Shown here: positions 4,135 to 50,800 of the stretch, piece after piece
Position numbering within the stretch: the first letter of the stretch is position 1
How the letters are laid out: the number at the start of each line of letters is the position of its first letter
NCBI GenBank assembly: GCA_033439255.1
Contig: CM065891.1
Coordinates: forward strand, 1,116,001-1,180,000
Length of the DNA stretch: 64,000 bases
From: Hericium rajendrae
Taxonomy: Eukaryota > Basidiomycota > Agaricomycetes > Russulales > Hericiaceae
Direction: 5' to 3'
The notes under the pieces: generated by a model
Database searches by the model: none
What the model was told of the DNA's origin: nothing
The model's input: the letters and a program-made list of their open reading frames with translations, nothing else
Program-made: the position numbers and the translations under genes

Positions 4135-4797
4135 CATCTGAAAAATTAGAAATCTATATAGCTCAGTACTAATGTATGTGTCCTAGCATAGTGCTATGAG
4201 GTCTATATAGCCACCCTTGCATCTATATAGAGCTATGCACACTATGATAGCCTTTATAGCAGCAGGCAGAAGGTACATAGACCTATGTACCTGTAAGCCA
4301 TTACTATCAGAGCTATGTACCATCATAGCCTTGCTATGGACTCTATCAGCCCTATGTCAAATATGGTAGACTCCATAATCAGAAGTGAAAATTTTTGATT
4401 TTATTATGTCAGAGTCATGATTGGTACAAGGCATCTAACTACGAAAACTAGTTGTAATTAAAAATATAATCCAGGCAGCCAGGTGGGCATGTAGACCGCA
4501 CCGTGCGCATCAAGTGGCAGCCATGCGCGGGCTACTGACATCGCGCGCGGGGTATTGATGCCGTGCGCATGGCGTCAATACCCTATCTGTGACGGTGGGG
4601 TCGCGTACAGGCTGTCGGGGTCCGTGCACGTGGCGTTATAGTCGCGCGCAGATGATGACGACGTGCGCGAGGTGCGCAGAGGGCGGAGAAGCGGCGAGGA
4701 GGGCGGAGAAGCGGCGAGGAGGGCGGAGAGGCAGAGCGCAAGGTGCGGACACGGCGCGGAGCGTGTGGACACAGCGCAGAGGGCGGGGACGCGGCGC

Positions 4798-5230
4798 GGA
4801 AGACGCCGGAGTGGGCGCGGAAGGCGTGGAGGCGGCGCGGAAGGCGTGGAGGCGGCGCGGAAGGCGTGGAGGCGGCGCGGAAGGCGTGGAGGATGCGCGG
4901 AAGGCGTGGACGCGGCGCGGAAGGCGTAAAGGCGGTGCGGAAGGCGTAAAGGCGGCGCGGATAGGGTGGAGGCGGCGCGGACAGGGTGGAGGCGGCGCGG
5001 ACAGGGTGGAGGCGGCGCGGACGGCGTGGAGGCGGCGCGGACGGCGTGGAGGCGGCACGGACGGCGTGGAGGCGGCGCGGACGGCGCGGACGGCGGCGCG
5101 GACGGCGTGGAGGGGGCGTGGACCGCGTGGAGGGGGCGCGAAAGGCGCGACGGATGCGCGGAAGGCTTGGAGGGGGCGCGGAAGGCTTGGAGGGGGCGCG
5201 GAAGGCTTGGAGGGGGCGCGGACACGGCGG
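4798..5230 (-). repeat. 20-bp G-rich minisatellite in leader intron of module A
   Basis: Units such as AAGGCGTGGAGGCGGCGCGG repeat about 20 times with point changes. On the strand of the leftward leader intron the array is C-rich. Long open frames on both strands are by-products of the repeat and are not called as genes. Confidence 0.9.
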
Positions 5231-5363
5231 AGGGGCGGCGGACAGGGTCGGAGGCGACGCGGACGGCGTAAAGGCGTCCCGGAGGGCGTAGAACGTCGCG
5301 GAGGGCGCGGACACGGTCGCAGGGTGGGGGAAACGAGCGCAGAGGCGCAGCGCGACGCATCGA

Positions 5364-5387
5364 GTCTCGTTGCCACGGCAACGAGAC
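5364..5387. other. Palindrome, GTCTCGTTGCC arms
   Basis: Perfect 11-bp arms separated by 2 bases. The same palindrome occurs in module C at 47,329-47,352, and a relative occurs at 20,765-20,792. Confidence 0.85.
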
Positions 5388-5670
5388 CCGACAGTCGTTG
5401 TCGTGTCGTTGTCCTGGTCATATGGGGTTGCTGCGAAGTGATGTCGACTGTCAGGGCGGCGTGGAGGGCGTGCGCGGCGTGAGGACAGGCATGGGCGGGC
5501 GCGAGGGCAGGCGCGGGCTGCACCAGGGGCGTCGGAGCCACACGCAGAGAACGTCGCGTGTTGTAACGCGACGGCGATGCGAGGGACGCGGCGAGGGTGT
5601 GAGGAGGGCCGCGAGGACGTGAAGAAGGCGGAGAGAGAGGGTAATGGGGGCCGAAGGCACGAAAGAACGG

Positions 5671-5699
5671 GAGTATCGCTCGGATAATGAGCGATACTC
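5671..5699 (-). other. Leader-intron hairpin (module A)
   Basis: Arms GAGTATCGCTC and GAGCGATACTC flank a 7-base loop. It ends 45 nt from the first base of the leftward leader 5' splice site at 5,744. Equivalent hairpins lie at the same spacing in five other module copies. Confidence 0.85.
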
Positions 5700-5744
5700 T
5701 CGGAATTAGTACAATAAACACATACATATGGTTTTTTTACTTAC

Positions 5745-6132
5745 CTTGAGCCCCCCGAGTCTCCAACTAATCCTGCCGACCTTCGGGGTGACGAAAAGCG
5801 AGGAGAACGACAAGGAGGGTGGGATGCAAGGGGAGCTGAGTGAAGGAGAAAGACAAGTCGAACGACGCGCCGTGCTTGAGCTACCGAAAGTGCGAGTTTA
5901 AACGTTTCGAACTTTACTGTTCGAATAAAATCGTTATATTTCAGAAAAAAAGACCGCATGTATATTTCATTAATACCATTCTATTGTATGAGCTACATAT
6001 CTAACTTATCTAACGTACGCTACTGAACGGCAGACACAAGTTAACGAAATCTATCACTTAGCCTCTGGCGCGGCGCCCGGCAGCGCCCGGCAGCCACGTT
6101 TGTGGCTCCGACCGGGCACGTCCGGGCTCAGC
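5745..6132. promoter_or_regulatory. Divergent promoter core of module A
   Basis: The leftward first exon ends CTCAAG at 5,745 before GTAAGTAAAAA on the minus strand. The rightward unit has TATATAAG at 6,133-6,140 followed by a pyrimidine-rich exon ending before GTAAGTC at 6,238. Transcription start sites are inferred, not seen. Confidence 0.5.
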
Positions 6133-7045
6133 TATATAAGGCTCGCACGACGCGCGTTCTCTTTCTCTCTTCAACCACTACCTTCTCCCTCCGCTCCGAG
6201 TTTTCTCTTAAGTCTGTCTTTCTTTGCTCGGTGTTCGGTAAGTCTTTTGTCTTTTATATTTGCTGGTCTATACTTATTTTATATCTTTAGACTACACCTT
6301 TTGTATAGTTTTGATAAGCTTTAGTATGTTTTGATGTCTTGTTGACTTCCTTAATCTTACAGGTTATGTTTTCGCTTTTTTTCATGTTTTGTTATAATCT
6401 TTGTAAGTGATGTTAGTCTTTCATCAAATATATTTCTTTGATTAACTTAATAACTTTTTAGTATCTCTAATGTATAATTTGTAGTTAATTATCAAATGTT
6501 GTAGTAGATTTAGATTGATTTCATATAATTTAATTTGATCAAGTCTTTTGCTATTATCTTTTGATGTGATCTTTTTAATAAGTTTGAAGTAAAATATAAA
6601 ATATGCTTTATAGTTGAATCATGATTCTGATAGCTCTAATAGATTTTATTGCTTTGATAGATGTGTTAAGTTTACATATTGAGTATAACATAAATAGATA
6701 ATATAGCTCTGATAGATTCAATAGCTAGGTATCCTATAATAGCTTCATAGTTAGCTATGATAGCTATGATAGCAGATCATAACATCCTCTTTGGCTCTAT
6801 AGCATCTTATAACACTATATAGCTCTCCCTTTGGGCTATAAGAGCTATGTAGTAAAGGGAGGTGCTATGGGCCTATGACTTCTATATAAGATATGTAGAA
6901 CTATGTAGGACCTGCATATTTTTCTGATGTTTTGTGCTGCGGTGGGGTGTGTGTGCTGATGGTGTGCGGCAGGTGTTATGCGGTGTGCAGCATATTAAGA
7001 TGGCACACATGTCATAGGGAGGAGATGGGAAGAATGGGAGATAAA

Positions 7046-8097
7046 TTAATTCACGTCCTCAGTATCTGGCATGTACAATGCTCGTGATAAGGAACCGCTG
7101 CGGTCAATGATGGCCCAGCGACCGCTTTGATACAATATGCGGCCAACTAGACATTGTACACATTGTAAGTCAAAAAACTCTTCCGTTTTTGACTCACTTG
7201 AGTAGTAATGAATGTCGAGAGCCTCATGCAAAGAGTCAATCTTGCAACAGGTGATGCCAGCAAGGAAGACCATCTCTCCAGGAGCAGATATGTTCAAAGC
7301 ACGTGATGGAGGAAGGAAGATGGCGAGAATCTGCTGTAGGCAGCCATAACACATCTTTGGCTCGAAAACGGGCTTCACACGTGGCCGATGTGCAAACTTG
7401 TCAATCAGGACCTCATACTTCAAGTTTCATTAAATGGTATTAGAATAATAGATACTGTGAGGCAGTGAAACAACTTACTTGCACATAGGTAGCGTCTCGT
7501 CGATCACTGTCACCATGACCGGCAGCACTGGACTTTGCTGCCACAATTGTGTTGCCATTGTCAATACGAACTTTAGCCCATTGCTCGATACGGGCAGACT
7601 GTAGGCACTGCTTGATGGACCTGATGTCTTTGACTTTGTTATAACGTGTCGCCAGGCATTTTTCGATGCGTCGCATGGTTAGATTGTCGAGAGAACCAGA
7701 ATTGCATGACGGAGGTAAGAGAATACACATGGGGTCTACAAAAGTGCACCATATGAGTTAACGATAGCCTGTGGGGTAAGGCATATGGTATTTGAAACTC
7801 ACATAATGGTGCTCGGATACCGCACACTTCATGCCACCTTTCCTGCGAGGAAGCAAGCATTGACAATGGCTCATCATCCAAATTATACATGAGTCGAATT
7901 TGTGTGATCTGAGCACATTCGACAACATAGCGATCTAGGGATGCGAACAGATGTTTCTTGCTCTTGATAGCGGGCCTGATGATCCTGCAGTAACGTTCCA
8001 TAGGAAAGGCCCAGTACACCCACACAGGCCCACATGCTTCAATAAGATCAGCGATATGCAACAGTGCGTGGATTGTAACCGGGCATGTTGAGATGCA
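7046..8097 (-). pseudogene. Plavaka (CACTA-type) transposase gene, C-terminal part
   Basis: The first exon (from about 8,097, after an acceptor ending CCCGCAG) reads CPVTIHALLHIADLIEACG, then PVWVYWAFPMERYC, the signature of the basidiomycete Tnp2/DUF4218 segment. Further exons carry IKSKKHLFASLDRY, then an exon with KCLATRYNKVKDI. The last exon ends with DIHYY, CVQCLVGR and RWAIIDRSGSLSRALY before a stop at 7,046. These are C-terminal landmarks of the Plavaka/Tnp2 family. The N-terminal part lies 8 kb away on the same strand (16.0-17.1 kb) and the central catalytic part is missing, so the gene is dead unless another copy supplies it. In functional relatives the product would be a nuclear transposase. 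Confidence 0.7.
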
Positions 8098-8460
8098 CTG
8101 CGGGTCATGGGGCCATCAGGAAAAACGGTTTTTTGGGTGATAGCCGAGGTATGGCTACGGTAGCCAAGCCTTGGCTGTAGTAACCGAGCCTTGGCTACTG
8201 TAAGCCACCGGTTTGATATTCGGGGACCCGGCAATCTTACAAAGCCAGAACTACAGCTACTGTACTTCCTGTAGCACTGGTATATCACAAAAATAAAATG
8301 TTCACTCTGAGCTATTCTGCACTCTCAAAAGCATGCTTAAATGCCCAAATTATCCTTTGATTTCACTATAGATGTTCACAATAATTCTCATTGGACCTAC
8401 ATGTAGTTACAAATATAATCTAATGTACAAGATTCTAATGTCTTCTTCGAAGTATCTGAG

Positions 8461-8498
8461 CGTGGGAACTGTTTTGCTGCAGCAAAACAGTTCCCACG
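8461..8498. other. Perfect 38-bp palindrome, left copy
   Basis: Begins CGTGGGAACTG and is centred on CTGCAG. It is identical to the copy at 15,498-15,535. Confidence 0.9.
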
Positions 8499-8519
8499 TT
8501 TTGCATCTGTAGGGGAGTT

Positions 8520-9770
8520 GGTGAGAGCATGCACGACTTGGCGCAGGCAGGAGGGACTGGGTGCGGGTGCGAGCAAGGTGGCGTCAGTGTCCGCAAAGCA
8601 GCGCGGATGCGCGGAAGGTGGCAGCATGGGGGAGAGGTGGCACCGCTGCGGAGGAGACAGCGCGGACATGCGCGCGGCAGTGTGGAGGCAGAGGAGATGG
8701 CAGGGGCGCAGCGGAGACGGCGTGGGCGCGCGTAAGGCAATGCGGGCACGCGCGCGAGACGATGCGGGCACGCGCGCGAGACGATGCGGGCACGCGCGCG
8801 AGAGATGCAGGCACGGAGGAGACAGAAAGGACACGCGGGAGGGGCATGCACGTGCAGAAGGTGTGCGTGCATGTGGGGGAGGCAGCGCGGACACGCGCGA
8901 GGCAGCGCCGGCACGGGGGAGGCAGCACAGGTGTGCGCAAGGTGTCGCAGGCATGGGCAAGGTGGCACGGACACGGGGGAGACGGCACCGCCATGCGCAA
9001 GGCAGCGCAGATGCGTCAGAGAGGGCGCTGGCATGTGCGAGGAAGACGACGCCAACCCGCACGAGGCGAGCAGGCGCGCGGGAGATGGCAGGGGCACGGG
9101 GGAGGCGGTAGAGAGTGCTGGGGAGGGGTCAGCAGCACGAGGAAGATAGCGCCAGCATGCGCGACATGGTGCAGACGCTGGGGAGATGGCGTGAGCAGGG
9201 GGGAGGCGATGTGGGCACGCGAGAGATGGCACGGGTGCGCAGGAGGCAGTAGGGAGTGCTGGGGAGGGGTCAGCGGCGTGAGGAAGACAGCGCCAGCGTG
9301 CGCGACACGGCGCAGATGCTGAGGAGACGGCGCGAGCAGGGGGGAGGTGATGTGGGCGCGCGGGAGATGGCACGGGCGCGCAGGAGGCGGCACGGGCACG
9401 TGCGAGTCTGCGCGGGCATGCGCAAGTCAGTGTGGGTGCGCTGGAGGTGGTGTGGGGTGCGTGAGTCCGCGCGGACGCGCGGGAGATGGTGTGGGCATAT
9501 GGGAGACGGCAGGCGTGCGGGGAAGACGGCACCCATGCAGGCGAGACGGTGCGGGCACGTGGGAGACGGCGCGGATGCACGGGGAAGGCGATGCAGGGGC
9601 GCGCGAGGCGACGCGGGTGTGCAGGAGATGGCGGTGGGCGCGAGGCGATACGGGCGCACGGGAGATGGCAGGGGCACGCAGGAGGCGGCAGGGGATGCGG
9701 GGAGGATGGCGCCGGCATGCGCGAGGCGACGCGTACGCATCCGCTCCCGCAGCCACGGGGGCCATTTCAA
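8520..9770 (+). repeat. G-rich degenerate minisatellite
   Basis: Blocks such as GAGACGGCGCGGGCACGCG and GGGAGATGGCACGGGCGCG recur irregularly. A larger duplication of roughly 150 bp is visible (around 9,060-9,150 and 9,210-9,300). Open frames span it on both strands because few stops arise in such sequence; none is supported as a gene. Confidence 0.8.
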
Positions 9771-9857
9771 GTCGGCGGGTGCTTGTGTGAGTGGGTGGGG
9801 TGCTGTGCAAGTTGGCGGGAGGTACGCACAAGCAAGGCGAAGATTTCGAACTTGGGG

Positions 9858-9893
9858 GTGGGAAGCGTTTGGCTGCAGCCAAATGTTTCCCAC
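9858..9893. other. Imperfect palindrome centred on GGCTGCAGCC
   Basis: Arms begin GTGGGAA and resemble the 38-bp palindromes at 8,461 and 15,498, with one or two mismatches in the arms. Confidence 0.75.
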
Positions 9894-10059
9894 ATGCCCC
9901 CCGCACTTTTTTTGTTCAAAGTCGAACTGTGCAGGCACGGCCCGCCGCGCACCGTGCTGTTTTATTGCCCATATATGGTCAATAAAAATGCATCGGGCCA
10001 CGCGGCTCCGTGCGGCGTGTGGTCGACTTGTTTGCCACGTCGTCTTCCACCTCCTTCCA

Positions 10060-10239
10060 CTCACTCCTCCCACCACCACTCCCCTCCCTATCCTCCTCCC
10101 CTCCCTCTGTCATCTCCCGTCAAACCGAATACCGAAGGACGGTAATAGGGTGACGAGGGCCCGTCAGGTGAGTAAAAAAAGTCTTTCCTCTTGCTTCTTC
10201 GTGCTAACATAGGGAGTATCGCTCGAATGGGTGATACTC
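10060..10239 (+). promoter_or_regulatory. Rightward leader exon, 5' splice site and hairpin in module E
   Basis: A C/T-rich exon ends CCCGTCAG before GTGAGTAAAAAA (donor at 10,168). A hairpin with GAGTATCGCTC and GGTGATACTC arms lies at 10,214-10,239. The exon shares CGAAGGA, GGTAA and GGGTGACGAGGGCCC with the leader of module D (36,960-37,008), showing common origin. Confidence 0.6.
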
Positions 10240-10249
10240 TCGCCTTTGT

Positions 10250-10760
10250 TGGTCTCTCCTGTCCACTCGCCTCCCGCCGCTGCCTCTCCCCCATCGACCC
10301 ACCCCCGATTCTGCCGCCACGCATACCACGGCACGATGCACACGGCAGCCTGCCGCTCACTGCCTCCCCGTCTCGTGCACGGGCCCAGGCGCTGCGTGCA
10401 ACCCCGTCATGCTGCGCACACCAGCGCACGCACGGCTGGTGGATGGCCACAGCAGTGCGTGGGTATGCCAGCCGGCACACACACACACACACGTCGTGCG
10501 TGCCCATGTGCAGGCATGCCAACGCTTCGCATGCGAGCCTCGTACATCACGCCTCGTGCCTCGTTGCTCAGGCCTGCTGCGTCGGGCTCGGGCTCAGTGC
10601 CTCACACACGCCCGCCGCGCCTCGCCCCAACTCCATGGTTCACGAGCCCGATGCCCCGCAACGCCGCAATGCCCCGCAATGCCCCACAATGCCTGTCTTA
10701 CCTCACGGACGCCCGCCGCACCTCGCGCACGGGGCCGTGGCAGCCCAGCACCCGAGGCGT
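10250..10760 (+). repeat. C-rich leader-intron tract
   Basis: Degenerate CCTCGCGCACGGGCC-type units follow the hairpin, as in modules B and D. No gene is supported. Confidence 0.6.
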
Positions 10761-10850
10761 CCTTTTAACCCATTTTAAACCTGTACCACTAACAATAGGA
10801 AGGAGGGTTGCAAACTGTACCAATAATAAGGGAGGGTTCAGGACCCATTC
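10752..10850. repeat. Short shared repeat with GGAGGG core, copy 1
   Basis: CGAGGCGTCCTT, then TACCA, GGAGGGTT and TACCAATAA blocks match the copy at 30,630-30,700. A partial inverted match lies at 14,420-14,490. The inverted pair at 10.76 and 14.49 kb may be the ends of an element nested in module E. Confidence 0.5.
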
Positions 10851-11089
10851 ACACTGCTCACGAAAAATCCGAAAAAATCATTATAAATATAGAAACCGGG
10901 CCGCTTATCGGGCCGTACACTACTCAATGACGCGCGCTTAGCATGCCTACACGAGCGGCTTCGCTCGGCACCATCCCGCCCTTGCTCGGCATCGTCGACC
11001 GCCCTGCGCGCTTCCCGCCTCCATGCCCTGCCCGACATCGGCTACGCGCCTGCACGTGCCTCTCTCGGCCGCTGCTCGTTCCTGCCGCT

Positions 11090-11230
11090 GCCACTCGCTC
11101 CCCGCTGCTGCCGCTCATTTCCTGCTGCCGCCGCTCGCTCCCCGCCACCGCCGCTCGCTCCCCGCCGCCGCCGCTCGCTCCCCACCACTGCCGCTCGCTT
11201 CCCGCCACCGCCACTCGCTCCCCGGCACGG
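11090..11230. repeat. CGCTCGCTCCCCGCC minisatellite
   Basis: About seven C-rich units of roughly 24 bp (CCGCTCGCTCCCCGCCACCG and variants) in tandem. Confidence 0.85.
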
Positions 11231-11289
11231 TTGCCACGATGCACGTCATCAGCGCCGCAGGCGCTGCCGCCGTCGTTGTCGCTGCGTTG

Positions 11290-12740
11290 CTAGTGTGGGC
11301 TACTGCGGTATTACGCACCGCGCGTCGCTGCCAGGATCCGTGCACCATCGTTGGGGCATCCTGCGCAGAGGCTGGACATCGTGCGTGGATGCTGGCATTG
11401 CGCATGGTGCTGGGGCCCGAGCGCGAGTGCATGGGCAGGCGGGCACCATTGCTGCACTCTGCGTGCAGGTGCCGGGGTGCTGCGCGTCGCGCGCAGGCGT
11501 TGAGGACCCGGCGCAAGCGTCGAGAGACGCCGGGGATGTTGAGGGAAGTGGGCGTGTGATGCGCGACACGTAGAGGCCGCGGACACACGCGTGCTGGAGG
11601 TCGTCATAGGCGTGGCTGCTGGTGTTGCACACGCGCATGCACGAGCGTTGGGGATGCGTCCTTGCGCGTGCATGGGCATCGGGCATGCGTCCTTGGCGCT
11701 GTGCGCAGATCCTGCGTGTTCGGAGCGTATAGTGCGCGAATCCGCGCGTGTCCGGGATGTGTGGAAGCGGGCGGATGGGCCGTGGACGGGGGTGTGGAGG
11801 ACTGCAGATGTGCGGGATAGATGAGGAAAGGGCGAGCGCGCGGAGATCGCGACGAAATGGGCGAAGAGCGCAGAGGAGCGCAGATCGTGTGGAGGGAGAG
11901 GAGGGCAGGTATGGAAGAGGGTGTGGGGAGGAAAACGAGCCGCGTCCATGCTGTGGCGTGGCTCGGGGAACGCCGATTGCTGGCAGCTGAAGGCCGAGAT
12001 GCCCGACGTTCGACGGAAGGAACGTTCGGGCATGGTCTCTGGGTCGAATTGAACCCACAATCAATATAGGACATGTATATGAAGTAGAATAGAGTCATTA
12101 AGCTAAATATCTAGTCAATATGGCCGAATCTTAAGCCATAACGAGCACTTCACGTTAACCCTATAGTAACCCTAGGACAGACATTCCATGGTACAAGATT
12201 CACTACGCAGAATTCAATCTATCTTCCACAGCGAAACGTTTTGTAATACTATTAGCTATATGCATACGAAGTTTCAATTTTTTTTGAAGTGATTTTAGAG
12301 CCTGGTGCCCAGAATACTTCCGAAAAAGACAGTCTGTACAGTCAAAAATCATGTATCTGCAAGATCCAGACGATCCATGACCGTAGAGAATACAATAAAG
12401 TAATATTATGCTACATATATATACTAGAAGCTACGACGGTCGACCGATAGAGTGTTGGAGAAATATGTGCTACGGAAATGCGACTCGAATCCGATGTCCG
12501 GCATGCCCGAGGCGTTGATCCGGGGCTCGACGTGTTTAGTCTTTTACGCATTTTAGACTTTCTTATTACTGCCTCAGCAGTTTCTCTTTCCCATCATCCT
12601 CTATTCCTATAAAAGTTTGTATTATGCTGTATTCATACCATCTACATCTACTCTATTATTATTAGGGTTTAAAGGAATTTATCTGCTCCTGCAAGACATC
12701 TTCGACTCAGAACGAGGCTAATTTCGGCAATTGCCGAACC
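11290..12740. other. GC-rich then AT-rich spacer, no gene recognised
   Basis: From 11,290 to about 11,980 the sequence is GC-rich and low-complexity; from 12,060 to 12,740 it is AT-rich without an identifiable exon. Nothing here carries a known motif. Confidence 0.4.
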
Positions 12741-12895
12741 GTGCCGCAAGCTCGGGGCTGAGGCTACCTCTTCCCTCCCTCCCTCAAGCGGGGCACAATT
12801 CGAGGCTCAATAGCCTCATAATTCGTAAGTCTTTTTCATTTCTTTCCCTATGTATGCTTTTGCTAACGAAATTTGATTTCTTCAGCCTTAACCGC
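12740..12895 (+). promoter_or_regulatory. Possible degraded leader exon and 5' splice site
   Basis: A CTTCCCTCCCTCCC tract followed by an ATAATTC/GTAAGTCTTTTTC donor resembles the leader exons of the modules, and a TTTCTTCAG acceptor-like site follows. No hairpin is found at the usual distance, so this is weak. Confidence 0.3.
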
Positions 12896-13271
12896 GATGA
12901 CGTGGCACGCTGCACACACCGCAATGCCGCCGCCAATCTATCCACCTGCCTCGCACTTCCAAACGCACGTCCGACGTCTCTCCATGCCATGAAGAGCCAC
13001 TCGCCAGCATATCAGATCCCGTGCTCGCAACTGCGCACCATCAAAGTCTCCCGGAGGCCCGTGCGCATGCCGCGTGAGACCATCCATCTCCATCTCCATC
13101 CCCACCCCCGCCACGCCACGTTCATGCCGACGTGTTCGCGTTCGCATGTGCGTCGGCCCAATACCGCGCACGCCCCATCAAGAAGCAACCAGATGCGGAT
13201 GCAAACGACGACCTCAAGACGCCCTCAAGACGCCCTCCCCCGCCCTCCACCAGCTCCGCGCCTGCACGCTG

Positions 13272-13440
13272 CATTGCCCGCGCGTCCCAGCCTCGTGCCT
13301 CCGCGCGTCCCAGCCCCATGCCTCTGCGCATCCCAGCCCCATGCCTCCGCGTGTCCCAGCCCCATGCCTCCGCGCGTCCCAGCCCCATGCCTCCGCGTGT
13401 CCCAGCCCCATGCCTCCGTGCATCCCAGCTCCCGCCCACC
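13272..13440. repeat. 23-bp C-rich minisatellite
   Basis: Units TCCCAGCCCCATGCCTCCGC plus three variable bases repeat about seven times. Degenerate copies continue to about 13,750. Confidence 0.85.
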
Positions 13441-14029
13441 ATCCCTCCTAGGCCCCCGCGCGCGTTCCAGTCCTGCGCACGTCCCATCTCAGCCTCGTGC
13501 CTCCGCACGTGCCAGCCTCCTGGCCGTCCCTCCCAGCGCCGCGAGCCTCGTGTCCCAGCCCTGCGAGCCCGCATGTCCCAGCTCCCTGCCCGCCGTCCTT
13601 CTCAGCCGCGTGCGTGTTCCAGCCCCACGCATGTTTCTCCAGCCCGCCGTCCCTCCCAGGCCCACGCCGGCATCTCAGCCCCGAGGTCGTGCGTCCCAGC
13701 CCCGAGCCTGCGCGCTCCAGTGCCGCATCCGCCATCCCAGCGCCGCACCGCGCCCATTTCACGCGCAGGAGCCATCAGTGGTGCGCGGCGGATGCGCGGT
13801 GAGCATAGTGGATGGTGCGGGCGCGTACCGCCTGCGCCGACCGGACCACGGCCCACATGCTCTGCAGCGGGCATGCGGCGAACAGTGCGCGCAACGTGCA
13901 TGCAGCCCGTGCGCAGCCGCGGGGCGGGAGCAGGAATGGCAGGCAGGAGTGAGCGAGGGTGCCGAAGCAGGTGCCGGCATGGCATGGCAGTGAGCGCCGG
14001 CGAGCACAAGGAAAGCGCGGCAAGCGCGA

Positions 14030-14270
14030 GAAAAGCGCCGGCGAGCGCGCGTGAAGCGCCGGCGAGCGCGAGGGGAAGCGCCGGCGAGCGCGAGGGGAAG
14101 TGCCGGCGAGCACGAGGGGAAGCGCCGGCGAGCGCGTGTGGAAGCGCCGGTGAGCGCGAGGGGAAGCACCGGCGAGCACGAGGGGAAGCGCTGGCGAGCG
14201 CGTGTGGAAGCGCCGGCGAGCACGGGTGGAAGCGCCGGCGAGCGCGGGTGGAAGCGCCGGCGACCCATAG
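14030..14270. repeat. 22-bp G-rich minisatellite
   Basis: About eleven units of GAAGCGCCGGCGAGCGCGAG with small changes (AGGGG or TGTGG at the join). Confidence 0.9.
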
Positions 14271-14285
14271 GTAGTATGTAATAGT

Positions 14286-14310
14286 GGCCGAGATCCTTAA
14301 GATCTCGGCC
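14286..14310. other. Perfect hairpin, GGCCGAGATC arms
   Basis: Ten-base arms with a CTTAA loop, directly after the 22-bp array. Confidence 0.85.
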
Positions 14311-14489
14311 GATATGTTTCTTTAAGAATATAACATGTTTTTTTGTATATGTTATTCTATGTAAAACATATTCTATGCAAAACATATGAAGTTCCAAACA
14401 TTGCATTAAGCCCGAAAATACTGCTTATAGTGTTACTGGTACATTTGGAACCCTCCCTCCTATTACTACTGGTATAGGTTGCAACTGAT

Positions 14490-15480
14490 CTACAGGGTCT
14501 GGTGAGCACCCCGCGCCCGCTCATTGCGCCTCGCTCACATTCGCCATGCCTTGCCCATGCTCGTCGCACCTCTCTTACACCCACCGCGCCTCGCACACAA
14601 GCCCACAGCAGCCCCAGGCCCTGCAACGCCCGCCGCATCTCGCGTACATCTGCCGTGCCTTGCACGCGCCTGTCACCCCGTGCGCGCCCGCCGCACATTG
14701 CGCATGGCCTCCGTGCCCCACCGCACCTTGCACACGGGCCCGGTGCCTCGCGCACGTGCACCGCGCTCTGCCACACCTCGCGTACAGATTTGCCGCAGTC
14801 CGACGCCGGCATGCACGGCCACCATGCCTTTCGCATGCCCGCCGCGCCTCGCGCATGGACCCAGCACCTTGTGAGTGTGCATGCCATTCATGCCCCGCCT
14901 TTCAACCCTGTAGTGACCCCCGCACCGCCTTCTGCGCCCCCACGCCGCCTCTTGCTCCCCCGCGCCGACTCGCGTGCGCCCCCTGCTGACTCGCACGCAC
15001 CCGCCGATGCTCCGGCACTCCCTTGCGCCCGTGCCGACTCCCGTGCACCCCCGCCGACTCGATCATGCTGGCGCCGCCTCCCATGCCCCCTCGCCGATGC
15101 CAACATGCCCCGTGCCACCTCCTGCGCCCTCCCCCGCTGCCTCCCACGCCCCACGTGGCCTCCAGCGCATCCGCACGGCCTCCAGCATGCCAGTGCAGAC
15201 TCGCACGCATCTGTGCGGATTCGCGCGTGTCCCCGCCGACTCGCCACGCCTCACATGGACTCGCACGCCCCCTTGCCGCCTCCAGAACACCCGCGCCGTC
15301 TCCAGCGTGCCCTTGCCACCTCGCCCGTGCCCGCACGGACTCGTGTGCACCTGCGCAGACTTGTGTGCCCATGGGCCCATATTGATGTCGTGCACCCATG
15401 CTGACCCCTGCGCGCCCCTGCCACCTCCTGCACACCCCTACCAACTTCTCCATGCCCCACACTGACCCCCCACATGCCCA
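14490..15480. repeat. C-rich degenerate minisatellite
   Basis: Irregular CCGCCTCCCATGCCC and CGCCGACTCGCACGC type units. Frames are open by composition only. Confidence 0.7.
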
Positions 15481-15497
15481 TATTGCATTCTGTAGTG

Positions 15498-15535
15498 CGT
15501 GGGAACTGTTTTGCTGCAGCAAAACAGTTCCCACG
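15498..15535. other. Perfect 38-bp palindrome, right copy
   Basis: Identical to 8,461-8,498; it sits 438 bases inside the right end of module E. Confidence 0.9.
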
Positions 15536-15973
15536 AGGGCTTGGGTGCTGTGGGTGCAGAAGAATATAGAGGGGGAGATTTTATGTATCAGTACTATACT
15601 ATTAGTGTACAGTTGTAACCAGTGAAATTAAAATGTTTTACATGATATATTGTTGGAGAGGTGATACGAGGGACTATTGTGGATTATATATCATACTGAA
15701 TCTCACATACTGCAATATAGCACTCCAGTAGCTAACATAAGCTACAGTGGCTAACATAAGCTACAGTAGCTAACATAAGCTATAGTAGATATATCATCTA
15801 CAGACTGCTACGGATCACTACAGATGGCTACAGATGGCTACAGATGGCTACCTGTAGTTGTAATAGAGACCCACCTATTAACAGATGCTACAGAAAATAT
15901 ATAATCTATTATAGCTACTGTAGACTATATTTTCTACTGTAGGCTAAAGTAGTGTGGACACTTTTTCCAGATG

Positions 15974-17095
15974 TGTTGATAATATAGCCTATTAAAATAA
16001 TCAAAATAAGGATGGGGCATAGCAAATACATAGATGTGATGTGGCATCTTGCAGTGCGGGCATGAGTCGAGGTCAGCATGTGGCCCCGTGTAGCAGATAC
16101 AAGAGTTTGGACAGCAATCGTATAAGGTAGGCTTGAAGCCTGCTAATGATGCAATACGCGTATGTGCAGAAGTGAGTGTCGGGACCTCCTGGTGTGGAAA
16201 ACAAAAACGAGGTCATTGTATGCACTGTCGGTGATGTGATGCCGAAGTTTAAAAGCATAGAGCCGCAACAATTGTCGATCACGATCACTAATGTCACTTG
16301 CTGCACACGGAACAAATCAGCCCAAGTAGATCCAAGCTGAGAACTAGAATTTACATACCATCTAATTGTGTCTCACGGATAAATCCCTCAGACACATGTT
16401 CGAAGGTCGCAAGGAAAGGGTCCTCTGGCTCAAGCGCACCGTACGAGTCCTCAACATCGCAGTCCGAATCAGTCTGAATGCCTGCATCATCTGCCCAGAT
16501 ATCATCATCGGAGTCGTCATCGGTTGATAAATTTTCCACGTCAAGTCCTGAGAGAGGCGACTCCATCCGAGATTGCTCCAATTCGACAGGGGGGACATCA
16601 TGATATGAAGGTGGTGGTGCATCGTAGGAACCTGCAAGAGAGAGACTTATGACATGAGCAGGTGAAACTGAAGTTCAAACGTACCTAATACATCTCCGTT
16701 ACTGTGCTGTTGCTGTCTCTGGTCTATATTGCCATGGTGGCGCGGATCCTCTGCTGCTCTCGACATGTCTGTTCTTTGCTCAATTTCTGAAAACAGCTGT
16801 CAATGAATACTGAAGAGAATATGGCGAATGCTGAGGGGAACGCACCTTCCGTCTGACGTGCCCGCTTCTTCAACTTTGGTGCCGAAAGAGCATCGACCAT
16901 GTCAGAATCACTTGATGCGTCCATGTTTTGCTCGTTTTGCCGTTTCAAACTGCCCGCCTTCGTGGCAAATTCTTCCACTTGTGCGGCCAGTGAACCGCGT
17001 ACATCAGGGACGTCAGTTGGTAAGATCGATCCGACCCATAAGTTGTAAGGGGTTATGGATTGATCCAACCCACAAGTTCTAAGGCAGTTACCCAC
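15974..17095 (-). pseudogene. Plavaka (CACTA-type) transposase gene, N-terminal part
   Basis: Exons on the minus strand carry a basic patch (PKLKKRARQ) and an acidic segment (LSTDDDSDDDIWADD). An exon beginning near 16,270 contains LYAFKLRHHITDSAYNDLVF, then RIASLAGFKPTLYDCCPNSC and YTGPHADLDSCPHC. The last motif, a cysteine cluster preceded by YDCC, is the N-terminal zinc-binding landmark of Plavaka/Tnp2 proteins. A one-base frame change separates the NDLVF and RIASLAGF segments. The gene runs into the right end of module E at 15,973. Together with 7,046-8,097 it appears to be one element split by module E with loss of its middle. Confidence 0.65.
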
Positions 17096-37080: not shown

Positions 37081-37089
37081 TCACCCTTG

Positions 37090-38240: not shown

Positions 38241-38609
38241 TCCGCGCATGACCATGCATGCTGCATTGTTCATACTAGTAGTATACTTGATTTTACTAGT
38301 ACCCATATTCAAATATAATTGATTTTTTTTTGTACCTGGTTGACTTGAGATAGTATATTCATACCTCACTTACTGTAGGGATCATAGGGACCATAGGGAC
38401 CATAGCAAGTCAGTGAATTTATATAGCAGCTATAGCTGCCTCTTAGAAATATATAGCTCTGTATAGTGTGTAACTACTGCTATGGAAGCTATGACAGGCT
38501 TCATAGCCTTATATAGTTGAGAAGGGTAGCTACATAGATAATGATAGATCTCATAGTGCTATGATAGCACATGAAACAGTCACTTAGTGCATTGAGGTAA
38601 TGCCAGGCG

Positions 38610-40770
38610 AACCTGACAAAGTGCCATTGTTGATTGGCCATCCTGCGCCGGCCCGTCGGTCACAATGTAGCAGTTACTCAATGACAGGCCTGCTCCCCTT
38701 ATGTACCAATAAGTCATTGTCTGGCCTCTGGTCATTTAATCTGTAGTGTCCATTTATCATTGACTGGCCTGGTTCACTATGTACCAATGGGTCATTGTCT
38801 GGCCCACTGGATGTGGTGGGAGGTCATTGGCTGGCCCGTACTCATGAAGTATCTACTATCCATTTCCCATTGACGGGCCTGTAGTATATACCAATGCATC
38901 ATTGACGGGCCGGTCCTCTCACAATACCGCTGTACATTCATCATTGACTGGCCCGTCCTCCAACGTCCATTGGGTCATTGACCGGCCCATTCCATCCCGC
39001 GGGTTGTCAATTGCTCGGCCCGTCCTCCAACATCCATTGGGTCATTGGCCGGCCAGTCCTTCTATAATACCACTGTACATTCATCATTGACTGGCCCGTC
39101 CTCCAACGTCCATTGGGTCATTGGCTGGCCGGTCCTCTTACAATACCGCTGTACATTCATCATTGACTGGCCCGTCCTCCAACGTCCATTGGGTCATTGG
39201 CTGGCCGGTCCTCTTACAATACCGCTGTACATTCATCATTGACTGGCCCGTCCTCCAACGTCCATTGGGTCATTGGCTGGCCGGTCCTCTTACAATACCG
39301 CTGTACATTCATCATTGACTGGCCCGTCCTCCAACGTCCATTGGGTCATTGACCGGCCCATTCCATCCCGCGGGTTGTCAATTGCTCGGCCCGTCCTCCA
39401 ACGTCCATTGGGTCATTGGCCGGCCAGTCCTTCTATAATACCGCTGTACATTCATCATTGACTGGCCCGTCCTCCAACGTCCATTGGGTCATTGGCTGGC
39501 CGGTCCTCTTACAATACCGCTGTACATTCATCATTGACTGGCCCGTCCTCCAACGTCCATTGGGTCATTGGCTGGCCGGTCCTCTCACAATACCGCTGTA
39601 CATTCATCATTCACCGGCCCGTCCTCCAACGTCCATTGGGTCATTGACCGGCCCATCCTCTCACAATTTCTACTATCAATTCCCCATTGACGGGCCTGCA
39701 GTATATACAAATGGGTCATTGATGGGCCCGTCCTCTTAGAATATACCATTGTACATTCATCATTGACCGGCCCACTCGATCCCGCGGCATCACAATTGCT
39801 CGGCCCGTCCTGTACCGTCCATCGGGTCATTGACGGGCCCGTCCTCTCACAATAACACTGTACATTGGGTCATTGGCCGGCCCGTCCTTTTACAATGTCT
39901 CCTGTACATTCATCATTGACGGGCCCGTCCTCCACCATCCAATGGGTCATTGGCTGGCCTGTCCTCCTACAATTTTTACCGTTTATTCATCATTGACGGG
40001 CCCGTCCTCTACCGTCCATTGGATCATTAACGGGCCGGTTCTCTCACAATGTCTACTGTACATTCATCATTCACCGGCCTGTCCTCTGACGTTCATTGGG
40101 TCATTGACAGGCCCATTCCATCCCACGGGTTGTCAATTGCTCGGCCCGTCCTCCAACATCCATTGGGTCATTGGCCGGCCGGTCCTCTTACAATACCGCT
40201 GTACATTCATCATTCACCGGCCCGTCCTCCAACGTCCATTGGGTCATTGACAGGCCCATTCCATCCCACGGGTTGTCAATTGCTCGGCCCGTCCTCCAAC
40301 ATCCATTGGGTCATTGGCCGGCCGGTCCTCTTACAATACCGCTGTACATTCATCATTCACCGGCCCGTCCTCCAACGTCCATTGGGTCATTGACAGGCCC
40401 ATTCCATCCCACGGGTTGTCAATTGCTCGGCCCGTCCTCCAACATCCATTGGGTCATTGGCCGGCCGGTCCTCTTACAATACCGCTGTACATTCATCATT
40501 CACCGGCCCGTCCTCCAACGTCCATTGGGTCATTGACAGGCCCATTCCATCCCACGGGTTGTCAATTGCTCGGCCCGTCCTCCAACATCCATTGGGTCAT
40601 TGGCCGGCCGGTCCTCTTACAATACCGCTGTACATTCATCATTCACCGGCCCGTCCTCCAACGTCCATTGGGTCATTGACAGGCCCATTCCATCCCGCGG
40701 GTTGTCAATTGCTCGGCCCGTCCTCCAACATCCATTGGGTCATTGGCCGGCCAGTTCTCTTATAATACCA
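38610..40770. repeat. TCATTGAC-GGCC satellite with 76-bp and 143-bp higher-order units
   Basis: The core is TCATTGAC(C/G)GGCCCGTCC, recurring every 35-40 bp. Around 39,045-39,320 copies repeat with a 76-bp period. From about 40,100 to 40,740 a 143-bp unit repeats about four and a half times almost without change. The first 400 bp are more diverged. Recent homogenisation is evident. It resumes at 41,980 after the ribosomal-exon array. Confidence 0.9.
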
Positions 40771-40923
40771 CAGTGCACGCTCGTTACTGGGGTGAAGGTG
40801 GGTGATACCGTGTTAATATATTCCATGAGATACAATGGAATTGCATGAATTTTGGAACCTAATGAGACAAGTGCGACATCATGGAAACATAAATTAGAAC
40901 GCAGCAGGCTGCTCCTGGTCCGT

Positions 40924-41640
40924 GGGTAAGGCAGGGACAACCCACCTGCCGCGGATAAGGCAGGGACAACCCACTTGCCGCCCACCTGCCAAGGCAAGGA
41001 CAACCCCACCTGCCGCGGGTAAGGCAGGGACAGCCCACCTGCCGCGGGTAAGGCAGAGACAACCCACTTGCCGTGGGTAAGGCAGGGACAACCCCACCTG
41101 CCGCGGGTAAGGCAGGGACAACCCCACCTGCCGCGGGTAAGGCAGGGACAGCCCACCTGCCGCGGGTAAGGCAGGGACAACCCCACCTGCCGCGGGTAAG
41201 GCAGGGACAACCCCACCTGCCGCGGGTAAGGCAGGGACAGCCCACCTCCCGCGGGTAATCAGCCGCCGCCGGTGATTGACTCACAGGATATATCAGACAA
41301 GTGCGACATGATGGAAACATACGGGCTGACCGGAGTGGATCATGAAGCCGTCGGTGAACTTCATCGACTTGGCACGGGCAGCACAAAGCTTGCCGGAAAC
41401 AACGACTTCGCAACCCTTGGCACCGGACTCCATAACGAAGCGGAGCACACAGCAGGGACAACCCCACCTCCTGCGGGTAAGGCAGGGACAACCCACCTCC
41501 CGCGGGTAAGGCAGGACAACCCCACCTGCCGTGGGTAAGGCAGGGACAACCCACTTGCCGTGGGTAAGGCAGGGACAACCCCACCTGCCGTGGGTAAGGC
41601 AGGGACAACCCACCTCCCGCGGGTAATCAGCCGCCGCCGG
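40924..41640 (-). repeat. 30-31-bp repeat array (left terminal array)
   Basis: Units CCACCTGCCGCGGGTAAGGC plus AGGGACAAC repeat about eleven times (40,924-41,260) and five to six times more (41,455-41,625). Each unit contains CCGCGG. The two blocks flank an S3 exon copy. Confidence 0.9.
41323..41448 (-). pseudogene. Captured exon of 40S ribosomal protein S3 (uS3), left copy 1
   Basis: Minus-strand reading: [20 protein letters not shown], then [11 protein letters not shown], then [11 protein letters not shown]. This is the strongly conserved middle of S3. The usual arginine after KL is cysteine here (a CGT to TGT change at a CpG) and this change is shared by all three copies, so it predates their amplification. 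After SGQP the sequence jumps to array spacer. Confidence 0.85.
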
Positions 41641-42350: not shown

Positions 42351-42355
42351 CACTT

Positions 42356-44657: not shown

Positions 44658-44670
44658 ATATGATAGGCAG

Positions 44671-44867: not shown

Positions 44868-47800
44868 TTACATGCCAAACTGCGATAGAGGATCGTCGCC
44901 TCTAGCAAGAGCAAATGCAGCTTCTGCGGTGGTTGCGAATTCTGCCCACATTGCACTCTGACGGGCTGCATATGCCAAGTGACCCAGTTTCCCCTTCCTG
45001 TCAGCCCATATCTTCCTAGCATTCCAGGCTGCTCCACGTGTCCTGAACCCGCGGACAGTCCACTCCATTTCAAATGGAAGCACTACCATTTGCTCCTCCC
45101 AGCGATGCAACCGAGCACGGGCGCGGAGCCATTGGACACGATGGACTGTAAGACAAGGATGAACAATCGGACATGCAAGAATGATTTTGGCTCACAATCT
45201 GCCAGCCATGTAGCCTCAGCGGAGTCCCCTTTCACATCTACACTCCAGAACCATGGCAGATTTGCATTCCGCAGCCCCCTTGCCGCGGGATCCAATACCG
45301 CGGTATGGACCTTGAGCTGTGCCCTCTCCAGCAGCTGAAGTCGTTTCAGGACCGACGACTTGACTTTCAATGTAACTAATGCCTCTCTTGCCTTCCGATA
45401 TATGCGGGCCTGCTGTTGTACTGTGTTTTCGATGGACATGACATCTGCCCAGGCTCGGGTTTTGCCGCGTTGACTGCCAGCATTGCGGACGTCATGTCTG
45501 AAAACAAATGCCTTATGTCCCAATGCTAGACGAAGGCTCTGCAACGCATCATTTGCTTGGCCCTCCCTCAACTCGGCCTCCTTGGCAACAAGCGAGCGCA
45601 TCTCCGGCAACGCGCGCAACTCGTCGTCCAGGCAGGATGGGATTGACAGGGCGACCCTCTCCACTGGGACATACACATTTGTGCCGTCTGCTGCAGCATT
45701 CCCTGGAGCATGTTGCTGTTCCGGCTGCTCGATATCCTCGCCATCTTCACCTACAAGGTCGAAGTCTTCCCCTTCATTTTCAGACAATGGGATGCCACCA
45801 CCTGTGACATCTGTATCCTGTGGGAGATAGTCGCCTGCCGCCCTCTCAAATGTCGAAACCCTGGCCTGGAGACGACGTCTGCGGTCTGCTAGATCATTTT
45901 TCTGCTCCGCGGTAAGGTTTTTTCCCAACTTGCGCAGATGTGCTAGGATAGATAGCCTGCCAGTTCCATTAAAAGAATGAAATGCTGAATGAATAAGGCA
46001 TTCTTTGGCAAGACTTACTGAGTTTCCTGAATGCGAAGTCCTACATCTGAAAAAATGGAATTTTATATAGCTGCAGGTTAAGTTATGGATGCTATCATTG
46101 AGTTATCATAGCTATGTAGTTTGCTTATCAACTATGTAGAGCTATGAGAGCTTCCATAGCTTCCATAGCTATTAGTGTCAGTTATATAGTATTATCATAG
46201 CTTCCATAGCCAGCAGTCTGAAATATATAGCACTATCATACTTAGTAAGGTGAGCTATGAGTACTATGAGTACTCTTAGTACTATGTCAAGTCAAATATT
46301 CAAAGTCAAAATTACTTATATTCAATAAAATTACTACTACAGAACGAGTACACTACAAGTAGGAATACCGCAGGGATGCACGGCATGCACAGGTAGGGCC
46401 GCGCACAGGCACAAGCGCACTGGTGGGGTGCGACAAAGTGCACCTGCGCACGAGGCGCGGCGCGGTGCGGCAGTCGTGCACGACGCGGCAGTCGTGCACG
46501 ACGCGGCAGTCGTGCGCGAAGAGCGGCGGGCCCATGCGAGAGGCGCACGGGGGGAAGAGCAAGGGGCGGCGAGAAGTCGGTGGGCAGCTAGAGGCGCCGC
46601 ACTCGGGGCAGCGGGGCGCGCGCGAGGCATGGAGGCCAGGCGCTGGGCATCGAAGGCGGCGCGAGACGGGCACCGGCAGCGGGCCCGTGTGCGAGGCGCG
46701 AGAGGTGGGCGTGCGGGGCATGCACGACGTGGCAGTGCCTGTGCACGACGTGGCAGGCCCGCGCGCCAGAGGTGAGGTGCTGGGGACGTGCGATGCGCGG
46801 CGGGCATGTGCGAGACGTCGGCAGGCCGCGCGAGGCCCCCCGAGACTCGCGGGGCGGCGCAAGGCACGCGGTGGGCGCACGAGGACGTGGGGTGTCCGCG
46901 AAGCGTCGGGCTGTGGCGGGCTCCATGCGCGAGGCTCCTGCCAGCGCGCTCGCAGTCCGTTAGTGGCTGCGGTCGTGCGTGCGTGGACCTGACCGTACAC
47001 AGGGGCGCGAGCGTGGTCGCGGCCGTGTCCGTCCGTCCGTGCGCTGGCGCGAACGTGCGGAGCTGCCCGTGCACCTGTGGGGCCGTGCGCGGGCAAATTG
47101 GTGCAGCTGCGGGTGCACTGGCAGCCGTATGCGGCGTTGCGGCGACGCACGGCGCCGGTGACGTGTCGGGGGCGGCGGGGGCGCGAGGATGGCGACGGGA
47201 TGCGGTGGGGTGTGGAAATGACGGCGGCGGGGAGACGGCGACGGCGACGGGGTGAGCAGGACGGTGGGCGCGGGCTGTTGGAGCCACACGGCGATGCGCA
47301 GGAAGGCGGAGCGAGGCGTGCTGAACGAGTCTCGTTGCCGTGGCAACGAGACCCGACGACGTCGTCGTCCGCGTTGTCGAGGGAATGGCGCAGACGTGGT
47401 GTGGTGAGCGTCGGCGTGGGATATCGTACCATGTCGTGCGGGAATGGAGGTGATTGGCCCTAAGGCAGAGAAATAAAAGAAAACGAGTATCACTCGTGCA
47501 GAGCACGAGCGATACTCGTTTTATTAGCACGGTACAGCGATAAGAGAGACCGTGCTTACTTACCTGAAGGCCCTCAGCCCGGCTCCTAACCCTCCTGACT
47601 GCAAGGCGATGCGAACCGTTGAGTGTGGAGAGGGAGTACGGGGTTGGAGACGAGAGATGAGGGAGTGATGAGGTGGAAAGCGCAAGTCGCGACTCAGCCA
47701 GGACTGCGGTTAAGTTCTTTCGAGCACAACAAATCGAATAAATCGATTTTAAATCAGAAAAAAAGATTGATATTATAGAATGTACATAAAACAATATCGC

Positions 47801-50800
47801 ATGAGAAACGATCGTAGATAATGTACCGTAGGCCACTGGCCAGCGAAGACAACTTACTCGGATCTGGCACTTAGCCTCTGTTGCGGAGCCCGGCAACCTT
47901 CGGCCCGGCGCTCGGCAGCCACGTTTCGGGCCCCGCTCGCAACGCCTATATAAGGCATGCGCGACGCGCGTCCTCTCTCTCTCTTTAACCCCCACCATCT
48001 CCCGCTTTTATGACCTTTGCTTACTGCTTGCTCTTGTCTTCTTAGCCTCTAAGGTAAAGTCTCTTATGTTTCTTATGTTTCTACTACTCATGTTCTTATG
48101 TTTTTAGTTAATTTCGCTTTTTTGTAGTCATAGTAGGTCTTTTAGGTAAGTTTTCTTATCTTTGTTATATTTCTTAGCCTGATGTTTTTATATATGTAGT
48201 TTATTTTCGCTTTTTGTTATCTTGGTATGTTTTTTGTTGTCTTATCTTTTTTATCTTATCTTTTATTATTATCTTATCTTATCTTTCCTTATCTTATCTT
48301 AATTTAAAATCTTGCTGTACTCTATCTAGATTATAAATTTATATATAATTGCTTGTATAGTTTGATTAGTTAGTTTATATATTTTGTATTATTGTTATAT
48401 AATGTGTAATAAAATTTATATTGATTTGCTCTTTTGCTGGTTTGATTGTGTTGTAATATCAAGTTTAACAATTGGTCAAATTTTGAAATAATTCAGATAA
48501 ATAAAATATAGTGTAGAAAGTTGATATAGTCTTAATAATCTGAGATAAGATGACTAGTATTCATATAGCTTATAGTATGAATAGTACACATATAATATAT
48601 AGTTAGTATAGTTCTTATAGCTACTTTATACTATGATAGCTATGATAGCTCTCTATAGCTGTCCTATCTGGCTCTATAGCTCTATATAGATGACACTCAA
48701 GCTATATAGAGGTATGAAGAAAAGGAGACAGCTATGGAGCTATGAGAACTATGTAGTCAATATAGTCATATATAGCTCTGACAATTTTCTCAGATGTAGA
48801 GTAATCCATGCCGCGGCACCTTGCCCCTTTTCCTTCTTTCGCTCTCGCTCATTCAATTTGGATAGGATCTCTGCTCTTGAAGGGGCTGTGTATCCCGCGG
48901 AAATCAACCCCTTGCCGCGGGAACACGTCGTACCAGGTTACGCGCACCTGTTTTGATTACTGTGTCATATATCGGGACCATGACTTCAGGCTTATCGCTG
49001 CGCTTATCCTGCGCACGCTGCTCTGCTTTGAGCCACGTGTCCCTATTCTCAGCCCCGACTGTTGCGTCGATATTTTCGAACCCAAGACGTGCCTCCGCAA
49101 TGCCTGCCTTGCCCTCTTTATACTTGCGGGTAAGGTACGATACTGTGCACCATGATCAGGATCAATGATTATTGCTCGGGAGTGAATGAACCCACCCATC
49201 CCTGTCATCTTTTTCCAATTTGAGTCATTCATATGGTCGTCCAGGACCTCTCGGCGATGAGAAGTCGTCATACCAGACGTACTGCGAGAAATCTCGTTCA
49301 GTGGTGCCCAGAGTGTTTCGACGACTTCCCCATCAAACTGTCTGGCTCCAATGATGTAGTTTGGTGAGAACGACGGGATGCAAGTATCCTTGTGTCCGTG
49401 GACATGGAACAGCCCAATCGCCTTCTTCATTTCCTTCAAACTCGTTGGAAGGTTGAGATATGGACTTCTCTCTACTCGCTCATCGAAATGCTTCCACCAT
49501 TGACAAATGACGTCATAGTATTTCAAGATGATTTCTATCCCTTCAGTATTGTGGTTGATGGCCTGGCACATGGAGTAGTCCATGTTCATTTGTCTGGTTG
49601 AGGGGGGTGCATGAGCCATGCTGCGGGATAGCGATATGGAACCCGCGGGACGCACCTTTCGCCTTTTTGAAAGTCAACAACAGAATGGGGATAGTAAGCA
49701 CCATGGCCACAGGCGGTAGCACCGATTCCGGTGTTTTCAATGTTGTGACGATCCGAGTTGACACGGTTTACAGCGCGGTGCTCATTGCAGGTGGAGCGCT
49801 AAAACATGGTCAAGCAACCTTGACCCGCGGCAATGCTGAACCACCCTACCTTGGTGACCTCCAAAGCAACTTTAAGATGTTCCTGATACTCTTTCCTTCC
49901 CACCATGAATCCGGTGCCATCACTGAGCTGGACATCATTCTCTGGCTTTCGCATCTTCACCCCAGTCGAGTCAAAATTGCCATCCATGACAAATGTTCTT
50001 AAGAAAATCCACCTGACGAGGTATGAATCTGAGAGGAATATTCTTGAGGTGACATGCAGCTTACTTCCGTGGATCTAATTCCTTCCAATTGTCCGGCAAG
50101 TTGAACCCTGGCTGAGGGCATGCTGCACAAAACAGCGCAAATGCACCCGCAGCATCTGGCTTGTCCAAGTCCGTATGGCCAGCCCCAAACCATTTTCTCA
50201 ACTTCATATCGCGCCATTCTCTTTCTACTCTGAGAAGCTCTCTGTACCGATTCTGGAGGAATATCTGATCAAAGAAATTTCCCTCTGATTACAAGAAAGT
50301 ATGTATCTCACCGGTACACTGGCCGGAAATGCACTGCTCGTGAGCCGACGCAGTTTCGCATAGAAATGCCAGGCTGTGGTCTTGCATTCTAAATTATCCA
50401 GTCGGAAGTCATCCAAAACATGAAACGTGAATGCAGATTGTGGTGCATTGAAGGAGGCTGGGAAGAAGCCCATCCGAAACAGCTGCTTTGCTGGTGCCTC
50501 TGCATCTGGACACTGACACCATACGACTGGCAGCTGATGGACTCCGTTCGAATCGATCAAGCAGAGAATGGGATTGCCTTCATTATCCATGTCCTGCTTG
50601 CGGACTGAATCTGTCTGGAAGTGCAGTGTGTTGTCTTCGTTACTCTGGTTCGTCTGATCATCCTCCGCATCATCGTCCTCATCCTCAACCCGGACTCCAT
50701 CTCCCTTCCAGCTTCCCGCGGCATGTGGACATGCTTCTCCACCGTGACCAAGGTGGACCCGAACACCAGCTAGACGCAGCCATGAAGGTGCAAAAAATTC

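Follow-up and report, generated by a model that had tools for sequence, protein, structure and literature searches.

What are the modules that recur in a 64,000-bp stretch of the Hericium rajendrae genome (assembly GCA_033439255.1, contig CM065891.1, positions 1,116,001 to 1,180,000; the whole stretch is called the window below), and what do their ends do? An initial annotation of this DNA described them as mobile elements whose terminal repeats are 3' splice acceptors followed by a start codon, and predicted that transcripts starting inside an element are spliced onto the flanking DNA on both sides. We find that the modules are probably non-autonomous PlavakaB-type cut-and-paste transposons of the CMCT clade, with a divergent promoter interior and non-coding arms. 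The splice-acceptor role of their ends is not supported.

Shared ends and the insertion of element C

Five modules with eight ends are present: A (4135, 6929), B (8114, 15973), C (46044, 48796), D (35773) and E (28465). Their extents, with the two copies of one target duplication, are as follows.

4135-6929, minus strand: element A, 2795 bp; GC-rich arm left, AT-rich arm right, TT/TT flanks; placed by ends, flanks and family alignment
8114-15973, plus strand: element B; terminates in CATCAGG / CATCTGG, has GTAGC subterminal repeats and two GC-rich arms
10776-14490, no strand: apparent different element nested in B, read in the sequence, limits by eye
25801-28465, plus strand: element E; keeps its right (GC-arm) end but not its left, left limit approximate
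35773-38600, plus strand: element D; intact at the left (AT-arm) end, without a right end, heading towards satellite DNA, right limit approximate
46044-48796, minus strand: element C, 2753 bp, within an exon of a KDZ (Kyakuja/Dileera/Zisupton) transposase gene
46042-46043, no strand: TA, left copy of the target duplication of C
48797-48798, no strand: TA, right copy of the target duplication of C

A and C have two ends each, while D is without its right end and E without its left. B, listed previously among truncated or nested relatives, is no mere fragment: its ends are paired, and its body, with a D-like core at about 10060-10240, is apparently interrupted by another element. A perfect 36-bp palindrome, GTGGGAACTGTTTTGCTGCAGCAAAACAGTTCCCAC, lies near both ends of B (8462-8497 and 15499-15534), with a degenerate copy near 9868.

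The terminal motif CATCTGAAAAA occurs exactly at 4135, 35773 and 46044, three copies against 0.01 expected for an 11-mer in the window. The other ends are near-matches, CATCAGAAAAA at 6929, CATCTGAGAAAA at 48796, CATCTCAAAAA at 28465 and, in B, CATCAGGAAAA at 8114 and CATCTGGAAAAA at 15973. Since matches with up to two mismatches are not rare alone (27 versus 16.5 expected), the membership of B rests on its paired ends, subterminal repeats and D-like core. CATC is found at all eight ends; the fifth base is T in six and A in two (A_R and B_L, with L and R denoting left and right ends). Past about 11 bp the two ends of the same element differ, and by eye the GC-arm ends A_L, C_L and E_R are alike, as are the AT-arm ends A_R, C_R and D_L.

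TATAGC-like repeats had been reported before each terminal acceptor. They are present at six of the eight ends, where the last 300 bp hold 7-18 ATAGC/GCTAT words; 146 background bins outside the modules average 0.25 and never exceed 2. Compared with first-order Markov sequences of the same composition, the excess has p = 0.00-0.013 at these six ends and 0.19 and 0.53 at the ends of B, where GTAGC/GCTAC words take their place (5 and 10 occurrences; 0.33 on average and at most 3 in the background).

Element C interrupts a KDZ gene on the minus strand, parts of which lie on either side of it (45086-46102 and 48960-51025). The span between equal aligned positions is 629 and 636 bp in the other two KDZ copies and 3503-3533 bp in the C-bearing copy; without C and one TA, the latter becomes about 750-780 bp, as computed from alignment coordinates. 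Joining the flanks of C minus one TA restores an in-frame ITL/GLRIQETQ (slash at the junction), where the other KDZ copies read FILLGFRIEEMQ and MVNDGLRLEAEQ; the frame is lost if 0 or 3 bases are omitted. Considering that the frame returns when one TA is dropped, C inserted cleanly and duplicated 2 bp of its target, TA. The restored KDZ frame thereby gives one precise target duplication for the family. Among the three testable copies, the duplication is firm at C (TA), weak at A (TT possible) and lacking at B; D is flanked by TA at its single end. The annotated mobile element family with shared ends is supported. BLAST-aligned stretches between modules are 65-71% identical, and forced alignment of the GC arms gives 50-69% identity. 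Judged from these sequence comparisons, the family is an old and diverged one.

Promoter-like and intron-like signals inside the modules

The modules share promoter-like and intron-like signals in their interior. On the GC-arm side, the annotated splice donors at 5745, 47564, 37008 and 26921 were confirmed, and an additional one was found in B at 10167. After every such donor, GGTRAGTAA, come TRCTAAY and GAG, which delimit a predicted intron of 48 nt in A and of 49 nt in the other four modules, with the branch point about 9 nt from the AG. This branch point and AG within 50 nt of each GC-arm donor are absent from the initial annotation. The pattern is found five times in the window, once per module, and in none of 100 simulated windows (order 3). 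Since it was defined post hoc from the modules themselves, the simulation gauges rarity and is no blind test.

5697-5744, minus strand: predicted GC-arm local intron of A, 48 nt
10168-10216, plus strand: predicted GC-arm local intron of B, 49 nt
26922-26970, plus strand: predicted GC-arm local intron of E, 49 nt
37009-37057, plus strand: predicted GC-arm local intron of D, 49 nt
47515-47563, minus strand: predicted GC-arm local intron of C, 49 nt
5668-5702, minus strand: palindrome GAGTATCGCTC..GAGCGATACTC where the local intron of A ends; equivalents in C 47477-47525, D 37055-37080, E 26968-26993 and B 10214-10239
5360-5391, no strand: second palindrome of A, GTCTCGTTGCC..GGCAACGAGAC; equivalent in C 47326-47355

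The palindrome at the GC-arm intron is present in all five modules, its left half invariant and its right half variable, with G-U pairs possible in B and C and a mismatch in E. In the direction of the AT arm, A, C, D and E carry TATATAAG. The donor downstream of it is 276 nt away in E, whose leader holds a minisatellite, and 103-107 nt away in the other three.

6133-6140, plus strand: TATA box, AT-arm unit of A; candidate local intron 6238-6290
26526-26533, minus strand: TATA box, AT-arm unit of E; candidate local intron 26257-26192
36589-36596, minus strand: TATA box, AT-arm unit of D; candidate local introns 36493-36444 and 36414-36357
47947-47954, plus strand: TATA box, AT-arm unit of C; candidate local introns 48054-48107 and 48146-48199

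These AT-arm candidates, picked by eye, are 50-66 nt long. A branch-like motif is seen in those of D and E and in the second of C, and none in the first AT-arm introns of A and C, which makes them less certain than the GC-arm introns. The divergent central region of the initial annotation is retained as to its leaders, its donors in both directions and its TATA boxes on the AT-arm side; upstream of the GC-arm leaders no TATATAAG was seen, this being the only TATA variant looked for. In an alignment of A, C, D and E, most 60-column blocks contain 2-15 invariant columns, with peaks of 26 at the TATA box and 31 at the leader intron and palindrome, and further peaks of 21, 23 and 20. The apparent element nested in B at 10776-14490 has an interior styled like that of its host family, with its own TATAAAAG, a leader, GC-rich arms and a predicted 61-nt intron (GTAAGT..TGCTAAC..CAG, 12825-12885).

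Possible sources of the conserved core, and relatives elsewhere, were sought in several collections. Rfam gave no match at the gathering score and a tRNA search none; the palindrome was found in one Alistipes stretch among prokaryote genomes, taken as chance, and in no viral contig. The subterminal motif matched six viral contigs, four of them with 300-bp bins of 6-11 ATAGC/GCTAT words, and none of the six loci has such ends, the local intron pattern or similarity to the window (blastn; tblastn with 18 open reading frames, ORFs, of the window). Against viral contigs, the KDZ ORF gave six pattern matches and no relative, and the tnp2-like ORF described below gave none.

No coding signal is found in the GC arms. 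Read outward, they are C-rich and as stop-poor as their composition predicts (ORF lengths versus Markov sequences, p 0.09-0.48, five arms). Gaps in multiples of three make up 2/11, 8/26, 3/12 and 7/19 of all gaps in four pairwise GC-arm alignments, and mismatches are without a three-base rhythm in three of the four. The GC-arm ORFs of 200-556 amino acids were considered as proteins and rejected, there being no Pfam match and no coding signal. The AT arms are presumably non-coding as well. Ratios of observed to expected CpG are 1.0-1.46 in the GC arms. For A, C and D the AT-arm ratios are 0.08-0.22, a strong depletion that comes without an excess of TpG/CpA (A 6240-6929, C 48050-48796, D 35773-36480).

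Family assignment and rival explanations

PlavakaB transposons have CATCA..TGATG termini and target duplications of 2 or 3 bp, and PlavakaA has TGT..ACA termini with 2-bp duplications (Kojima 2025, PMC12730594, here and below as given in parts of that article). Considering the CATC ends, the short duplication (the TA at C is within the 2-3 bp range) and the subterminal repeats, the modules appear to fit PlavakaB-type DNA transposons best; PlavakaB is also reported from Agaricomycotina, to judge from the same parts (PMC12730594). They differ from PlavakaB as described there in that the fifth base is mostly T and no transposase was found inside. The main text of that paper does not contain "splic" or "subterminal", and the parts drawn on here make no mention of a divergent promoter. 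The CMCT clade includes CACTA/EnSpm as well as PlavakaB (PMC12730594). The soybean Tgmt* elements of the CACTA/EnSpm group, in the portions of PMC2613891 drawn on here, resemble the modules in combining short conserved terminal repeats with diverging, palindrome-forming subterminal repeats, which are proposed binding sites of the element protein; they differ in their CACTA termini, 3-bp duplication and protein-coding content. The modules do not fit EnSpm/CACTA, having CATC ends and 2 bp at C in place of CAC..GTG termini and a 3-bp duplication. CACTA ends of maize Spm are able to act as splice acceptors. Non-autonomous elements of Marasmius oreades, described along with Plavaka and KDZ elements in the sections of PMC8290104 and PMC9674265 used here, are likewise fungal DNA elements classed by terminal motif and duplication length, differing in being mostly under 1,000 bp.

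Several observations weigh against the PlavakaB assignment. The fifth terminal base is T in six of eight ends, unlike the published A; the TT/TT flanks of A are weak, having a 1 in 16 probability by chance, and B has no target duplication. No Plavaka transposase (PF18759) was found in the single GC-arm ORF scanned in each of the five modules, no Plavaka domain match was obtained, and no autonomous partner with module ends was seen in the window, whose sole tnp2-like remnant (7642-8115) is a flanking pseudogene. In the alignment of the D and B GC arms, one codon position is higher in mismatches (0.37 versus 0.28-0.29). On the side of non-autonomous elements, Pfam (E up to 0.01) gave no match of any kind for the same five ORFs, and nothing inside the modules was matched by tblastn with 18 window ORFs, including the KDZ and tnp2-like ones. 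With no transposase recognised in the ORFs examined, the modules look non-autonomous.

The proposal that the modules are mobile gene traps, their internal transcripts spliced to TTTTTCAG/ATG ends that equip neighbouring DNA with a leader and start codon, draws on real features: five of the eight ends consist of a pyrimidine tract, CAG and ATG, donors point in both directions, and frames of 276 and 104 codons follow the ATG at E_R and A_L. We nevertheless regard the gene trap as improbable, since an AG precedes the terminal ATG at only six ends (five CAG, one GAG), A_R and B_L reading CTG, and since the ATG is followed directly by TAG at C_L, C_R and D_L and by open frames of 10, 3 and 2 codons at A_R, B_L and B_R. 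A usable start codon at each end, which the gene trap would call for, is therefore lacking: three of eight ends read ATG TAG, three have 2-10 codons and two a long frame. The last 350 nt contain 15-26 YAG sites in each of eight arms (B_L left out, D_R missing), and with a branch point and AG near every GC-arm donor, splicing over 1.5-1.6 kb to the end in A, C and E, or 5.8 kb in B, is unnecessary. That some ends resemble TTTTTCAG/ATG is a consequence of the terminus CATCTGAAAAA, and the resemblance is not conserved in all ends; the PlavakaB consensus terminus read outward is TGATG, with no AG ahead of the ATG, according to the part of PMC12730594 used. The modules might instead be introner-like, removed from host mRNA as introns with the TTTTTCAG end as 3' splice site of the whole element. 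C does lie inside a coding exon, and introners, from what parts of PMC9860276 report, are mobile, some families having inverted ends and some carrying a 3' splice site. Introners are, however, short and spliced out of genes, with family median lengths of 30-654 nt and no use of the word "promoter" in that main text (PMC9860276), and the modules are at least 2.7 kb long and carry internal promoter-like signals. This, with the two ends lacking AG, makes an introner very improbable.

An origin of the interior by deletion from several autonomous two-gene transposons is compatible with the PlavakaB reading, and we hold it possible, if somewhat unlikely. The core would then be the leftover divergent promoters of the transposase and partner genes, with the gene bodies replaced by low-complexity DNA. 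Divergent leaders with short introns resemble ordinary fungal gene starts, which counts in its favour, as does the 65-71% identity of the aligned copy stretches, as if from separate lineages. It is opposed by the absence of any recognised transposase remnant in the ORFs examined and by the mutual relatedness of the GC arms of B, D and E, which makes those arms an old part of the family. That the modules are non-autonomous KDZ elements is hardly credible even though KDZ genes abound in the window, since a Dileera family and two Kyakuja families are published with duplications of 8 and 7 bp, respectively (PMC12730594, same parts), and the reading frame fixes the duplication at C as 2 bp. KDZ membership was rejected on this ground.

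Genomic setting and a possible role of the interior

The window looks like a nest of transposons. The domains and remnants recognised outside the modules are listed below.

48960-49673, 19111-19746 and 32239-32964: KDZ transposase domains (Pfam)
50228-51025, 33628-34218 and 21542-22156: CxC2 domains (Pfam)
51456-52334: Tet_JBP domain (Pfam)
7642-8115: tnp2-like remnant, flanking pseudogene beside B (DUF4218 match below the curated cut-off)

Two tnp2-like gene pieces bracket B (7642-8115 and 15937-16212), and the core between them was not seen; this gene is presumably Plavaka-like. A minus-strand ORF at 35055-35618, without a Pfam match and presumably 2-oxoglutarate (2OG) dioxygenase-like by its motif, adjoins D and is apparently broken by it. 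A plus-strand pair of ORFs in 28406-29824 (295 and 171 amino acids) likewise has no Pfam matches, and the first, 28406-29290, crosses the right end of E, as expected if E too landed in a gene. Directly past the missing right end of D is a satellite array (38822-40777; periods 76/143/286 bp, GGCCCGTCCTCC..CATTGGGTCATTG). A 29-bp minisatellite with consensus CCGCGGGTAAGGCAGGGACAACCCCACCTG occurs at two distant sites, 40920-41626 and 63677-63822, each within longer stretches that are about 85-99% alike. At 24634-25704, repeats of 123 and 302 bp that face each other in inverted orientation, with 86-89% identity, are probably another small element.

We propose that a Plavaka-type transposase supplied in trans would recognise the CATCWG ends together with the TATAGC repeats next to them, and would insert the element with a 2-bp target duplication, as found for one copy, C. 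The interior divergent promoter region would drive two outward leader RNAs, from which short introns would be removed near the start; transcription and splicing are predicted here from sequence signals alone. On a more tentative and rather doubtful extension of this scheme, the lineage would have kept a working divergent promoter and length-fixed leader introns of 48-49 nt over about 30-35% divergence to make two spliced, pyrimidine-rich non-coding RNAs, one U-rich and one C-rich, serving the element. Such leader RNAs might, for example, hold the chromatin of the element open for a transposase made elsewhere.

This internal layout was undescribed in the open-licence literature searched, which was judged largely on titles and the beginnings of abstracts and included outward-splicing and bidirectional elements. 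What appears notable is a diverged family retaining a divergent promoter region and short leader introns that would feed arms without coding signal. The striking claim of portable splice acceptors with start codons is removed as unsupported, and a testable one is put in its place. Non-autonomous elements are expected to need their ends alone; why, then, would a shared divergent promoter and intron-bearing leaders be kept? Fungal genomes with RNA-seq could answer why the internal promoter region is retained.
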